A stretch of 64,000 nt of DNA, taken from positions 1 through 64,000 of the forward strand of contig NZ_JAQYWB010000011.1 in assembly GCF_030145185.1 (NCBI RefSeq). The letters are read 5' to 3'. Positions 1 through 40,209 of the stretch are shown one piece after another (position 1 is the stretch's first letter; the number at the start of each line of letters is the position of its first letter). Under the pieces are notes generated by a model. It did not search any database and was not told the DNA's origin. It worked only from the letters and a program-made list of their open reading frames with translations. The translations under genes and the position numbers were made by a program. This DNA is from Desulfoluna sp. Its GTDB lineage: Bacteria > Desulfobacterota > Desulfobacteria > Desulfobacterales > Desulfolunaceae.

Positions 1-126
1 TTCCTCTCTCGCGGATTGTTTCTTCCGGGAGTTTAATTCCTTTGATCAGCCGAATCGCCGAGGTACGCGATCCGTATGCCAGGTGGTGTGGGAGGGCCCT
101 TCAGTGATGAGGGGTCCTATCCCGAT
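1..126 (+). mobile_element. 3' end of a group II intron (domains V and VI)
   Basis: The stretch folds like the terminal domains of a bacterial group II intron. At 54-89 a short hairpin has a CGCC/GGTG base, a TACG/CGTA upper stem and a two-base bulge on the 3' side, as domain V does. It is followed at 90-126 by a second hairpin closed by GGGA/TCCC with GG-CCCT/AGGGG-CC pairing and an unpaired A near the end, as in domain VI, and the end reads CCCGAT. The rest of the intron, including any maturase, lies outside the window to the left. The call rests on reading the fold by eye, so the intron class is not assigned. Confidence 0.62.
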
Positions 127-440
127 GTAAGCCGTGCTTCAATTCAAGATGTTCCGAAAACCCAAGGGCTTGGGGACAACTGAATGGAGAAGACCCTTCG
201 AACTGAAAGAAAGGAAACCGACTACCTTTGAGTTGCCGCCACCCCTCACGAACACGACAGCCTATGAACAAAACCGTAAAACGAGCCACCCTAAAACACC
301 AAAAACTGGGTTTGTGGCTACTGTTGGCACTGTTTTGCACGAGGGTACCCCTGTGACAAACAGTGGAAAAGTTCAAAGAACGAAACCCTTGGGCGAAGGG
401 GAAAGAACCACAACCCCTTACGTTTTTTGCAAGTTCCGAT
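127..440. other. Unassigned sequence between intron end and attC-like site
   Basis: No gene was recognised. Open frames of about 90-100 codons exist on both strands at 101-442, but they overlap each other, have no convincing ribosome binding site and give no familiar protein. It would be the 3' exon side of the intron insertion. Confidence 0.4.
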
Positions 441-576
441 AAGGCTTACAACGCCACACTTCACCCGACGGGCGCAGAAGCCTGACAGTATTTGATATTT
501 GACAATGAACGGCTAATGAATAGGCTTGAAAAGCCGCACTTGCGCCCGGTCGGTGTGCAAGTAATTGTTATCTCAG
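441..576 (-). other. Candidate integron attC recombination site
   Basis: Read on the minus strand, this begins ATAACAATTACTTGCACACC and ends GGCGTTGTAAGCC. The outer ends pair as ATAAC with GTTGT around the obligatory AAC/GTT cores. The inner arms CACCGACCGGGCGC and GCGCCCGTCGGGTG also pair, with a small bulge. The total of about 130 bp with a long variable centre is in the range of VCR-like attC sites. It starts about 23 bp after the stop codon of the gene ending at 599, which is where a cassette's attC belongs. The R' core does not match GTTRRRY exactly, so this remains a candidate. Confidence 0.5.
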
Positions 577-598
577 TCGATTTATTATTACAGCCCTT

Positions 599-1315
599 TT
601 ATTGTTCCTTATAGCCATATTTCAACTTCCCTTGCACTCTCATTACAGGACCTATAGCAAATGCTTCATATGGATTATTATTTATATCTGTTCGATTAAA
701 ACATGATTCCATTACACTTCCCAATAATACTTTAATAGATGTCTCTTCCGTCTTAATGCCAAGATCGTCTATTATTAATTGATGATACGGACCATCTCCA
801 TTTTGAAATAGTTTTAGCGATCCCTTATCAAATATAGATACTACATCAGGATAATTCTCTATTGAATTCTCTTTTCCTAAACTATCGTACATTTTTTTTA
901 AATCACTTCTGACCGATTTAAAACAGAAAGCATAGAAATCTATTTTATTATCTATTTTTTTAATACTATTGCATTTATCAATAATATCTTTATATTCCTC
1001 TTTATTAAAATTAGATTTCACCTCAATTGCACAAACTACAGCATTTTTATTAGCAACAACAAATTTATTTTCTCTTAAAAAATATGCAGAAGGATAATTT
1101 TCATCTATTATTAGAATATCCATTTGTTTTGAAGAGCTTTTACTTTCATGATCATATACAAAGCCAGAATTAATAGAAAAGCGATTAGAAATAAAATTTC
1201 CCAGATATTCAACTAATACAGCTTCCCTATATTCACCAATTGTTAAATTGTGACTTGTATATTTTTTTATTTTCTCAAATTTCAAACTTATATCTTTTAC
1301 TGCATTTTCAAACAT
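599..1315 (-). CDS. DUF6602-like protein, PD-(D/E)XK nuclease type
   Basis: A 238-residue soluble protein that resembles the DUF6602 family. Near residue 66 it has MDILIID, and about 25 residues later CAIEVKSN. This D...ExK spacing fits the metal-binding core of PD-(D/E)XK nucleases, so DNA cleavage is possible but not shown. The ATG has a good ribosome binding site (GAGGAAATA). The coding sequence is strikingly AT-rich, with long A/T runs, against GC-rich neighbours, so recent transfer is likely. It is directly followed by a candidate attC site, as a single-gene integron cassette would be. Related proteins are often found in defence or cassette settings; the role here is unknown. Confidence 0.75.
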   Translation of the reverse strand: MFENAVKDISLKFEKIKKYTSHNLTIGEYREAVLVEYLGNFISNRFSINSGFVYDHESKSSSKQMDILIIDENYPSAYFLRENKFVVANKNAVVCAIEVKSNFNKEEYKDIIDKCNSIKKIDNKIDFYAFCFKSVRSDLKKMYDSLGKENSIENYPDVVSIFDKGSLKLFQNGDGPYHQLIIDDLGIKTEETSIKVLLGSVMESCFNRTDINNNPYEAFAIGPVMRVQGKLKYGYKEQ

Positions 1316-1860
1316 TATTTCCTCAGCAAAAATTTATTTAACACATATACATAATATATATTATTCGTCACTATTAATCCAACTGTCAAAATTTAATATT
1401 CAGTACTGTCGATCTATATCCTCATTGTAGATAACATTATGAATAACCCGCCAATTTTTCAATCTATCACCTATATAGGCCTGAACCTCGGACAGGTTAT
1501 CCGATATCCAAGGGGATAAAGTGGAAAATTGGAAGGGGTTGGGTTCCATGTTTTAATGTTCAATACTACCGAACAAGTTGTCCAGTTATTGAGGATGAGA
1601 TCATAGTTCGTATGACAAATCAAGAATGGATTGCCGTATCATTCGCAACAGACTTTATTTGTTGTGCTATAGGCCAAAAAAGTTTTTTTGCGTTCTGTTT
1701 TGAGCCTGATAGGAGACCGCATGAAATATTGATATACCTGCCTTTGGTTTTCCATGTTTTGCCTTGAATAGCCTGATAGATGGCCATAAGTCTACCTTAG
1801 ACCGCTGATATGTGCCGTTTTCCATGTTTACCCTTTAATAATCCGCCATGAAACAAGTTC
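1316..1860. other. AT-rich intergenic region upstream of the cassette gene
   Basis: No gene seen. The first ~60 bp upstream of the cassette ATG are almost pure A/T (TAATATATATTATG on the minus strand) and could hold its promoter. Around 1440-1500 the minus strand has GGATAACC and GGGTTATTC as complementary ends about 50 bp apart, a weak second attC-like signal without inner arms. Composition rises to GC-rich beyond about 1800. Confidence 0.4.
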
Positions 1861-2216
1861 GTATGCCCCCTACTATTGAAGGTACGAAAAATGGAACTCT
1901 TGCGACCCGGATCCACCCTGAAGCAGTGGGACCCGGCCAGACAGATTCCTTGTTTCGGCCCCCTTCGTGTTCTCATCACTCTTTCTCGCTCCCAGGCTCT
2001 GTCCGGCACTTATCCTTGTGATCATGCAATACAAATTTTTGCTATCGCACCACTTAATGGGTAAGTGCCGGGCTCTGCCTGGGCGTTTCGGGTGCAAGGC
2101 TCCGCCTTGCCGGTACGAAAAGTCGTCATGCTGGAGTGAAACTCACAGATTGCTGGGCTTCAAGCATGGAGGCGGAGCCTCCGGAGAGCATTACCAGGCA
2201 GAGCCTGGGAACGAGA
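1861..2216. repeat. Region of CAGGCTCTGCCTGG-type short repeats
   Basis: Several variants of a short palindromic element lie here: CCCAGGCTCTGTCC near 1990, GGGCTCTGCCTGGGCG near 2072, GCAAGGCTCCGCCTTGC near 2093 and CCAGGCAGAGCCTGGGAACG near 2193. No coding sequence is supported. The sequence looks like nested intergenic repeat insertions. Confidence 0.55.
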
Positions 2217-2688: not shown

Positions 2689-3040
2689 GCGCCGGGGTGT
2701 TGCTGTGCTCAAAAAAGAAGGCGCTAAAAGCAGGTGGCAGGCCATGGATGACGGTCCCGAAGTCGCTGCTCTTTTAGCCCGGATATTTCATGAAAAAACG
2801 ATCGATTCAAAGCAATAGGCAATTATTGCAATGAGCTATTGCGGAAGATTCAGTCATTTCAAAAATACAAAATGTAATTCACGGTTATCTGTTCGCTTTT
2901 CTCACCCGACTCGTGAAATATTCGGGTTAGAAACGAAATTTTAATAAGTCGTACAAACTTTAACCTTCGCAGAGAAACGCATACTGTTTCTTAAAAGGCC
3001 GCTGTGATTTGACCCGAGGAACGAGGGGCAAAACACAGCG
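2689..3040. other. Intergenic stretch without a recognised gene
   Basis: Nothing coding was recognised. It contains two copies of a short motif seen elsewhere in the window: CGGATATTTCATG at 2780-2792, and a variant CGTGAAATATTCGGG at 2912-2926. Confidence 0.5.
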
Positions 3041-12958: not shown

Positions 12959-15900
12959 TTACCGCATCTCCAGTCTGAACATCAACTCACCACCGAAATC
13001 GCCGTCGGTGTCCCGAAAGGCATTCATCAGGACATTTTCATAAAATTTATATTCGGTGATGGCACTTTGGACCGTGACCCCATTTTTGGTGCCTATCCCG
13101 TATTTGAGGGTCATTCGTTTGGAGAGCTCTTTGCCGACCGTGATGTTCACATCATCGGCCTCCTCCGGATCCGTTCGTTCTGTGTATTTCATCTCAAGGG
13201 TGTCGAGTCCGGTGGCCTCTTTCAGGCTTCCCTGGAGGGTTCGGGCCACCAGGTCGGCAACCATCTGACGGGTGGACTGATGGGAGCCCCCTTCGCCATC
13301 GATCATCTCCTCCCGTGTTTTGTTGAATAAGAGCAGGGAGAGAATCGTGGCATCGGTCTCTGATGGGGTTGAGCTCATGTCAAATTTTAGATTGTCCTCC
13401 ACGCCGGACACCCGTAAGTGAAGGGTCCATGTTCTTACCTTGATCTCGCTCTCCAGGTCGATGGTGGCTTCAATTTTGTAAGGGTTGATAAAATCCAGGA
13501 CCCCTTTTTTAATTTCAAACTCTTTGCCCAGATAGGAGATGACCCCGGACTCCACTTCTGCCCTGCCACTGACGAGAGGCCCGCTCAAGGGGCCGTGGAG
13601 GGTCAGCGTCGGCTTCAGGGCCATGAGGACGATGTTATTGTCCACGATCAAGGGGGCGCGGTGGTGCAGTGTAATATGGAGATCTGTGTTTTTCAGCAGA
13701 AGGGGACTTTCGGTTTGTGTGACGGGCGGTATCGCCCGTTTTTTTTCACCGAGGCTGTCGATGAGGCCCAGTTTGATTTCTTTATAATACAGGCCTTCGA
13801 GAAGGACAATATTTCCCGCAATTATAGACCTTTCAGGCGTTCCAGAAAAGGTCAGCCCACCGTTTAACAGGACCTCCAGGGTCTCGGGAAGCCTGATGGG
13901 CAGGGTGTAGGCGTTGAGGCGTGCGGTGATGGAGACCGGTGTAAATTGGTCCAGGGCCAGTGTTCCGGACAGATCCAATCGCCCTTTGTCCAGGTTGCCG
14001 GTGAGTTTCTTAATGGTCAGGGTCTCAGGTGTGAGGTGAAGTTGACCGTTGACGCTGTGAAGTTTCTGATTCAAGACGGGCACGGTGAGCTTGAGCTGCT
14101 TCAGCCTCAGGTCTGCCTGGAAGTCAGGCTGCTTTCGGGTGCCTTTCAGCCGAGCCGCGAGCTGGATCTCCCCTGTGATATCACTCAGCGCTTCAGTGAA
14201 CAGATGAATGACTTCCAGGGGCAGCGCGCCGTCCGCCTGAAAATCGATGGCGCCGTCATGCCTCGCCTTGCCGGTGATTTCGAGATGTCCCTGATGGAAG
14301 AGGTCGAGGCGAAGGGTCGGCACATGAAGGGTTCCGTTTTCGATGGAGGCATCGCAGACCCCGGCACTGACCAGCGGGATGTCGTTGTGGGACAAGGAGA
14401 GCTGAGAGACTCGGGTAACGGCCTGGAGGGTCTCCGGGGTGTCGGCGTTGCCTTCCACCTCGATAAAGCCCGTCACGGTTCCTGTCAGGTCTTTGCGCCC
14501 CATGGACTCGAAAAAAGGTCTCAGCGGGGTCTGGTCAAGCAGGGCCTTTCCTGAAAACAGGTGGGTTTTGAGTGCGTAAAAACCCGTGAACTCCGCCCCC
14601 AGAGTCCCTTTGGCCCGGACGAGATGATCCTGAAGGGTCAGCTTGAGGCTGCCGTCGTCAAAGGGCTTGTTGTTCAGGCGCAGGTGGGTTCCTTGAAATT
14701 CTCCCGCCAACTGGGGATTTTCAAGGCTCCCTGTGCCGGTGATATTCGCGTTGATTTTTCCCTCTGCGGCCATGTCGGCCTGGATTGAATCGATATGTTT
14801 CAGGCTGATTCCCGGGGTATTCAGGTGCAGGCCGTAGTGCTTCTTCGCCGGAGAATACCAGCCATCGGCGGTCAGTGTCTCACCCTCTCCCAGGGTCAGC
14901 GAGAGGGACTCCACGGTCACCCGGTTTTTGTCGAACTGTGAGTCTAAGGTGAGCGCTTGAATTTTCTGGATGCCAAGGTCGATGTTCTGCGCGTTGACAG
15001 AGAGGGTGCCCTGGGGGTGCGCCACCGATCCGGTGAGGTGGCCTTTTACGTCCACCCTCCCTTCTCTTCCCTCGAAAAAATCCCGGAGAGACAGCGCCTT
15101 GCCGCTCAGCGTGAAATTCAAATCAGGGGAGGTCATGATGGCCCCTGAGGTCGCCTCTAAAACCCGTGCGTTTCCTGAGAGCCGCAGCTCCGATGCCCCG
15201 TTTTGGAGTCGGGCCTCATCAACGGTCAGCAGGCCCTGGTGGAGTCGGAGGCGGGTATTCAGATCTCCTATGCGGATCTTTTTCGCGGCAAGGTTCCGGG
15301 CTGTCAACTCCAGCCGGGCTTCTGCCCTCATGGTTTCCGGAGAGAGACCCACGCCTTGCAGGCTGAGTGATGCGTGTACGTCACCCGTGATTCCTTCGGA
15401 GTTGCCGGGCAGGTTTTCAAGGGCGGTTCCGGCCTGGGTCACCGCCAGGTGGTAGGTGATGGCTTTTAAATCCCTTGTGGGGGCTGTCAAGCCATCGGGG
15501 AACGCCTTCTGGAGGTCGATTTTCCCTGTGGCCGCGACCTGGCCCAGGGCGGACTCTATCTCCATTTTTTCCAGAATCAGCTGTTTTTCTTTAAGGCTGC
15601 CCGTAAAGGTCATCTGATCCACCCGGATTCCGGCGAGCTCCCCACCCGGGCACTCAAGGGAGAGGGTCAGGGTTGGATTCGTTACGCGGCCCCTGGCTTT
15701 CAGGTGAAGCATGACCGGACCCGTGAATGTCGGGGAGAGGTGGAAGGCTTCTCGTATCTGGGAAAGGTCCGTGGATGCGGTTGCCTGGACATCAAAAAGC
15801 GGAACCGTAAAAAGGTCGCTGACGCCTCCGGTTACCGCAAGGTGTAAAAGGTCCGAATCGAGTTGAAGGGTTCCGGATGTTATCTGGTTCTTTTCCAGGC

Positions 15901-16656: not shown

Positions 16657-16700
16657 AAAAAACCGGCCGGGAAGGGGGTGCCTTTCAGGTCGGTTTTTTT
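16657..16700 (-). terminator. Intrinsic terminator after the PNPOx-like gene
   Basis: AAACCGGCC and GGTCGGTTT pair over 9 bp (one G-U) around a loop, with A/T tracts on both flanks, so it can act in either direction. On the minus strand it follows the gene ending at 16716 and separates it from the tamB-tamA pair. Confidence 0.7.
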
Positions 16701-16715
16701 GAGGGGCGGGAGGGT

Positions 16716-17093
16716 CTACAGGAGTTTTTCAGCTCCTGAATAGACGGCTTCGACCTTGAGGGCCGTCGCGGCATGGCCTGGATGTTTTTCTGGGTTCCAG
16801 GTCTTCATGTCTTCAAATACCGCGCCTTCGGTGTGGTATTCGATGGATCCCTTGATCTGGAAAGCGGCGCCTTCTTTGGTGATAAAGAGAAGGGACCCTT
16901 TGCTTCCGGACTGGATGTTTTCAAGGGTTTTAGAGAAATAGTTGTTGGCCACGACCAGGGTCTCTTCGTCATACTTTGAGACGCAGGTGGCGTAGATAGC
17001 GTTGGGGGTCCCTGATTTATCAACGGTGGTTAAAATGATGGGACCTTGATGATCGCTCCATGCTTTACTTACTTTTTCGGGTAATACGGCCAT
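16716..17093 (-). CDS. Pyridoxamine 5'-phosphate oxidase-like flavin-binding protein
   Basis: A 125-residue soluble protein with the split-barrel pattern of the PNPOx-like superfamily: GPIILTTVDKSGTPNAIYAT (strands beta1-2), then VVANNYFSKTLENIQSG and GSLLFITKEGAAFQIKGSIE. Such short members bind FMN or a related cofactor and often act as flavin reductases or general stress proteins; the substrate cannot be told. A good AAGGA ribosome binding site lies before the ATG. It appears to be transcribed alone, with a terminator at its end and the beta-barrel gene about 290 bp upstream. Confidence 0.82.
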   Translation of the reverse strand: MAVLPEKVSKAWSDHQGPIILTTVDKSGTPNAIYATCVSKYDEETLVVANNYFSKTLENIQSGSKGSLLFITKEGAAFQIKGSIEYHTEGAVFEDMKTWNPEKHPGHAATALKVEAVYSGAEKLL

Positions 17094-39853: not shown

Positions 39854-40209
39854 GGGCAACGTGTCTCGCTTTGAATTAAGGAGGGCGACCGAGTAACTTA
39901 CCGTAACAGGGTCAGTTTTTGAATGGAGATGTCCGAGCCCGGACATTTCACGAAAATCAGATAGAATACCGTGGATTACATTTTGCATTTTTGAAACAAC
40001 GGAAAATATGACTGCAAAGAACTGTCATTACGGATTATTCATTCGTTCTGATTGCTTTCTCATGAAATATCCGGGAGAGCGGTCATCCTTATTTCTTAAG
40101 GTAGTCGTTGCCGAAGGGAAAAGGAAGCAAAAAGTGCAGGTAAAAGGGAGATTGTGTTTGATGGGCGATGGTGCAAAGCGTCCCTTTTTCCTGGGGGTGG
40201 AGGAAGGGG
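39854..40209. other. Intergenic region before the fusion gene
   Basis: No gene supported. It contains CATGAAATATCCGGG at 40061-40075 and the degenerate CCGGACATTTCACGAAAA near 39945-39962, two members of a short motif also found near 2780, 2912 and 51637. Confidence 0.45.

Follow-up and report, generated by a model that had tools for sequence, protein, structure and literature searches.

Integrase-less attI platforms in Desulfoluna genomes as candidate ports for integron cassettes loaded in trans

The stretch of DNA analyzed here (the window) covers the first 64 kb of C36, a contig in a Desulfoluna genome (5.79 Mb in 152 contigs, a 97%-complete assembly). Base 1 is placed at the contig end, so that nothing to its left is readable, and close to that end the window holds an integron attI site with its cassettes and without an adjoining integrase gene. 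This locus is probably one of several attI platforms dispersed in each Desulfoluna genome and loaded in trans by a single integrase, IntI. The array starts inside the window, at the crossover between 1435 and 1434, and the integron feature reaches ~1945, beyond the 1-1315 first noted. An earlier note made from the letters of the window had suggested the edge of an integron that reaches out of the window to the left; its head, the attI, instead lies within the window, to the right of the cassette gene. The features of the locus are as follows.

1-125, plus strand: 3'-terminal part of a group II intron truncated at the contig end (D5 ~54-87, D6 ~89-124; homologue on contig C114)
126-451, minus strand: cassette E, gene-less, its attC split at R'' by the intron (copies in attC arrays)
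446-573, minus strand: attC of cassette 1 (covariance-model match; single-strand fold)
452-1434, minus strand: cassette 1, 983 bp from crossover to crossover
599-1315, minus strand: cassette gene, 238 amino acids, PD-(D/E)XK nuclease-like (DUF6602)
1435-1890, minus strand: attI platform, consisting of the docking site and conserved upstream blocks (homology to contigs C42, C96, C114 and C123)
1891-1945, plus strand: intI remnant, the first ~18 codons of the gene (aligning with the beginning of intI on C42)

The platform at 1435-1890 aligns with the part of C42 located between intI and the first cassette, and also with C96, C114 and C123, which like C15 and C36 are contigs of the same genome. 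It reads leftward, toward the cassettes, and an attI sequence model (R1) matches 1430-1576. The homology breaks off precisely at AATG^TT, past which unrelated cassettes begin, and on the opposite side it stops at the intI start or slightly within intI. A translated IntI search of the window gives no match besides the remnant, and to the right of the remnant other DNA is followed by a TolC/RND operon. The homology to the intI-cassette region of C42, the ~18 residual intI codons and the lack of any other IntI match indicate that the integrase gene once beside the attI platform at 1435-1890 has been lost. Orthologs of the tolC gene that neighbours the platform occur in five congeners, with no attI adjoining in the stretches read, and as this flank is rearranged among the congeners no clean empty site is readable. 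The stretch from the intI remnant to the TolC gene contains a 163-bp direct repeat (2215-2377 and 2415-2577, 94% identical). Within the platform a motif like TATTNAAGGNNAAAACATGGA is iterated (1545-1565 and 1821-1841, both on the minus strand, with further copies), and an inverted copy overlies the intI start codon; ATGGAAA/TTTCCAT dyads occur ahead of the crossover in other families of the order. The motif may be a candidate binding site for IntI or for a regulator.

On the minus strand the R'' box of the cassette 1 attC (AGATAAC, 573-567) is placed ~25 bp beyond the stop codon of the gene and the R' box is GTTGTAA (452-446), with the inner arms paired. An attC covariance model (R2) built from seven similar sites at other loci, in this genome and in related ones, with the window excluded and with a consensus stem in which pairs change on both sides, matches 444-573 on the minus strand with 118 bits (E=2.8e-30 over 391 kb). 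As single-stranded DNA the site folds better than its shuffles (z -2.6, 2 of 200 being as good). A first simple scan missed this attC, the R' box deviating from GTTRRRY. When a cassette is circular, the bases that directly follow the crossover pair with the R'' box of its own attC, and the GTTATCT start of cassette 1 is complementary to its R''. Such complementarity of 7-10 nt is found at 12 of 16 platforms (chance at most 0.024 each), and it allows the arrays of Desulfoluna limicola and of C96 to be walked cassette by cassette. The proposals that an attC of ~130 bp follows the AT-rich minus-strand gene and that this gene is an integron cassette are thus both borne out, and a match to the attC model, other cassettes and an integrase are all present in the genome. 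The gene product belongs to the DUF6602 family, PD-(D/E)XK nuclease-like with similarity to NucC (PF20247 1.4e-23; PADLOC PD_DExK 7e-24 and NucC 5e-19); a role in phage defence is a guess.

At the contig end, bases 1-124 match, at 97% identity, the 3' end of a C114 group II intron that encodes a reverse transcriptase/maturase (TIGR04416, 421 bits), and 47-125 folds as a D5 hairpin (54-87) and D6 (89-124) with z -2.9. An Rfam search of the window gave no match, so the intron call rests on the C114 copy, its maturase and the fold; the group II intron end noted earlier on the opposite strand is upheld by these three, and its distance of ~315 bp from the attC is correct, although the suggested comparison with group II models yielded nothing in Rfam. 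Read against the uninterrupted copy on C96, where the sequence is ATTGTTGTAAGCC, the junction between 125 and 126 lies in the R'' box of the cassette E attC (window form CCCGA/TGTAAGCC, the slash marking the junction). Group IIC-attC introns insert in the R'' box of attC sites, antisense to the cassette, at TTGT/T (PMC7923331). The intron in the window is alike in R'' site, antisense orientation, TTGT/T target, maturase and D5-D6, and no difference is evident, the likeness being drawn from the site, the fold and the maturase match; it appears to behave as a group IIC-attC intron, the attC-inserting kind proposed at the outset. Contigs C36 and C15 start at the identical base of this intron and C114 stops within a copy of it, which accounts for the contig breaks. 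At two further attI loci of the genome, on C123 (1-142) and C114 (~6137 of L019, the C123 locus being L084), a group II intron 3' end directly follows the first cassette gene in the opposite orientation, the C123 intron being of a different sequence type.

The 315-bp gap between intron and attC is a second, gene-less cassette, termed E. Copies of these 315 bp at 80-89% identity occur once on C15 and twice on C96, and others occur in two congeneric genomes, each copy within an attC array; the uninterrupted form on C96 is a 442-bp cassette with its own attC. A coding gene was rejected for E, every frame having stops in some copy with no conserved ORF, as was a structured RNA, since the covariation term of the consensus fold is unfavourable and many of its pairs are broken. 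Covariation in the E alignment is clearest at the two ends, where it is that of the R''/R' pairing of the cassette. E was found in only three genomes, all Desulfoluna, among 389 of the order, and by exact pattern not at all in a genome-contig collection from which the records of its own genome may be absent. In D. limicola, cassette 4 of the L074 array (556 bp) and cassette 3 of the L073 array (368 bp) have no ATG-started frame longer than 21 amino acids. Before the contig end the window locus comprises one whole attC and the intron-split one; the sister array on C96 has six cassettes.

Copies of attI outnumber integrase genes in Desulfoluna. The attI model gives 5 copies in the window's own genome, 5 in D. 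limicola ASN36 (G003, NZ_AP024488.1, a complete single-contig genome), ~15 in the metagenome-assembled genome GLD-1 (G004), 2 in G002 and 4 in G006. Intact or broken intI genes number one or two in each of the own genome, D. limicola and GLD-1, the first two having one and two loci above the TIGR02249 cut-off. An integron integrase gene, which the earlier note proposed to look for, is present in the own genome as a single locus on C42, broken by an inserted 133-bp repeat that contains a stop codon, and no intact intI was found in the 97%-complete assembly. As the only intI found is broken, the attI set of this genome may now be frozen. The GLD-1 intI is also broken. D. limicola has two intI loci, one intact and one interrupted by an insert resembling the 133-bp repeat family (as judged from translation), and three of its five attI platforms are without intI. 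MITE-like repeats of ~130-160 bp with ends AACCCGGATATTTCATGAG / CTCGTGAAATATCCGGGTTA are scattered through the own genome, with sites on C42 (L016, ~16671-16830, where intI is interrupted), in the window (2774-2929 and 39952-40075) and at L011 and L017-L021. In a tree of the attI copies, some nodes of which are weak, the grouping is largely by genome, and the D. limicola copies fall into two subtypes, one with each of the two intI loci.

Conservation along the intI-less platforms is uneven. In the own genome, with distance measured from the crossover, mean identity among them is 86-89% over the first 200 bp, 38-60% over the next 100 bp and 74-85% over the next 150 bp, and beyond the intI start (462 bp) it drops to background. 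The same segments in D. limicola are 75-81, 32-39 and 63-69% identical, followed by background. Such conservation on both sides of a decayed spacer suggests that attI and an upstream element are under selection. The conserved block upstream of the docking site is perhaps a promoter; sigma-70 promoter patterns in the platform are in no excess over shuffles.

The comparison of two D. limicola loci bears most directly on loading in trans. The attI at 2.289 Mb has the intact intI and the attI at 2.862 Mb, 570 kb away, has none. Their first cassettes are 100% identical over 1,574 bp, from G^TT to G^TT, although the two attI sequences are only ~84% identical and the cassettes next in line differ. 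Farther along, the two arrays also share a 518-bp cassette at 98% identity, likewise with G^TT at both ends. These boundaries are those of integron recombination and not of ordinary homologous exchange. The 1,574-bp cassette carries an IS91-like transposase gene (Zn_Tnp_IS91, Y2_Tnp; L072 ~14204-15379, L073 1865-3040), which could give it mobility of its own and makes this case questionable if taken alone; no transposase gene is seen in the 518-bp cassette, which is therefore free of that doubt. Fragments of a similar IS91-like gene occur in the C15 array (L018 ~1790-2085). Cassettes 2 and 6 of the L072 array of D. limicola are both 486 bp long and agree in how they start, in attC length and in the predicted beginning of the protein. 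The anatomy of the loci, the attI and intI counts, the crossover boundaries and the identical cassette at an intI-bearing and an intI-less attI are all legible in the DNA itself; from them we infer that IntI made the insertions at intI-less sites, with the key evidence for action in trans coming from one genome, that of D. limicola.

The mechanism proposed on these grounds would run as follows. Integron heads would have been copied and their intI genes then lost, the platform at 1435-1890 having kept its docking site and upstream region. An IntI encoded at another locus would act in trans on any attI copy, recombining the folded attC of free cassettes with attI at AATG^TT. The window platform would in this way have captured the nuclease-like gene cassette and the gene-less cassette, the second of which is split by the group IIC-attC intron.

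The most serious competing explanation is that the platforms are relics of complete integrons, clusters of attC sites lacking integron integrases (CALINs), fixed since intI was lost and receiving no further insertions. The intI stubs of various lengths at the intI-less sites, the broken intI of the own genome and of GLD-1, and the proposal that CALINs are degraded integrons (PMC9024848) all agree with it. It is nevertheless rather unlikely, since the intI-less copies keep conserved blocks around a decayed spacer and since the identical 1,574-bp cassette stands at an intI-bearing and an intI-less attI that are only 84% identical. Rearrangement while intI was still present could also have moved cassettes between loci, which would count against trans loading. 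That transposition or gene conversion, and not IntI, spread the cassettes shared in D. limicola is improbable: one of the two carries the IS91-like transposase gene, but both ends of both cassettes are at G^TT, a gene conversion tract would not end at the two crossover points, and no transposase is seen in the 518-bp cassette.

That the platform is a mobile MITE-like repeat lying beside cassettes by chance is very improbable. It is multicopy, has iterated ATGGAA motifs and belongs to a genome rich in MITE-like repeats; at intI-bearing loci, however, it occupies the interval from intI to the first cassette, and its end at AATG^TT adjoins a cassette. Its other end has no fixed boundary, since the intI stubs differ in length, and a discrete mobile unit is disfavoured for the same reason. 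Loading of intI-less attI platforms by an integrase acting in trans is the reading preferred here.

Similar arrangements are seen beyond the genus. Among 380 genomes of the order, the attI model gives weaker matches in 20 genomes outside Desulfoluna, and at most of the 20 loci inspected there the start of the cassette has a complementary R''. In G147 there are five attI-like sites (the one on C281 without the GTT core) and one intI, in G101 three and one intI, and in G019 two and one intI; at the other attI sites intI stubs of various lengths remain. Genomes with one intI and many attI sites, similar to Desulfoluna, occur in other families of the order.

Published integrons have one attI beside intI (PMC9024848; PMC8618304). 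The window locus resembles a sedentary chromosomal integron in its G^TT attI crossover, its attC cassettes, the array reading away from attI and the presence of a TIGR02249 intI in the genome, and it differs in that the attI has no adjoining intI and that several attI copies exist per genome. CALINs, clusters of at least two attC sites without a nearby integron integrase, may arise by intI loss (PMC8618304) and can be mobilised in trans (PMC12444791). Like them, the window locus has cassettes with no integrase nearby, whereas unlike them it keeps attI and its upstream region; an intI-less locus of this kind in D. limicola, moreover, holds a cassette identical to one at an intI-bearing attI. 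IntI is known to act at non-canonical sites, attG (PMC12444791) and delta-attI cassettes (PMC12901181), which share with the present case the use of sites away from its own attI. However, attG sites are unrelated genomic sequences and delta-attI replaces attC in a cassette, whereas in Desulfoluna the whole attI region is present in homologous copies. The attI sites outside class 1 are poorly described and undetected by the standard search tool (PMC9024848). No description of several attI per genome served by one integrase was found in the literature, drawn mostly from outside subscription journals; the components are known, and the new part, the multi-port architecture, looks undescribed.

Cassette E is conserved in three congeneric genomes. 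On the sequence evidence the chances are about even that the Desulfobacterales have distributed integrons, in which one integrase serves many dispersed attI ports, each able to gain, lose and express its cassettes, with E distributed over the ports as a regulatory or promoter cassette. Direct tests are possible in D. limicola, a named strain whose genome is finished. If several attI ports per genome are loaded in trans, one genome could express several first-position cassettes simultaneously, the loss of intI beside an array would not freeze that array, and many arrays that lack an integrase and are regarded as dead relics may be live.
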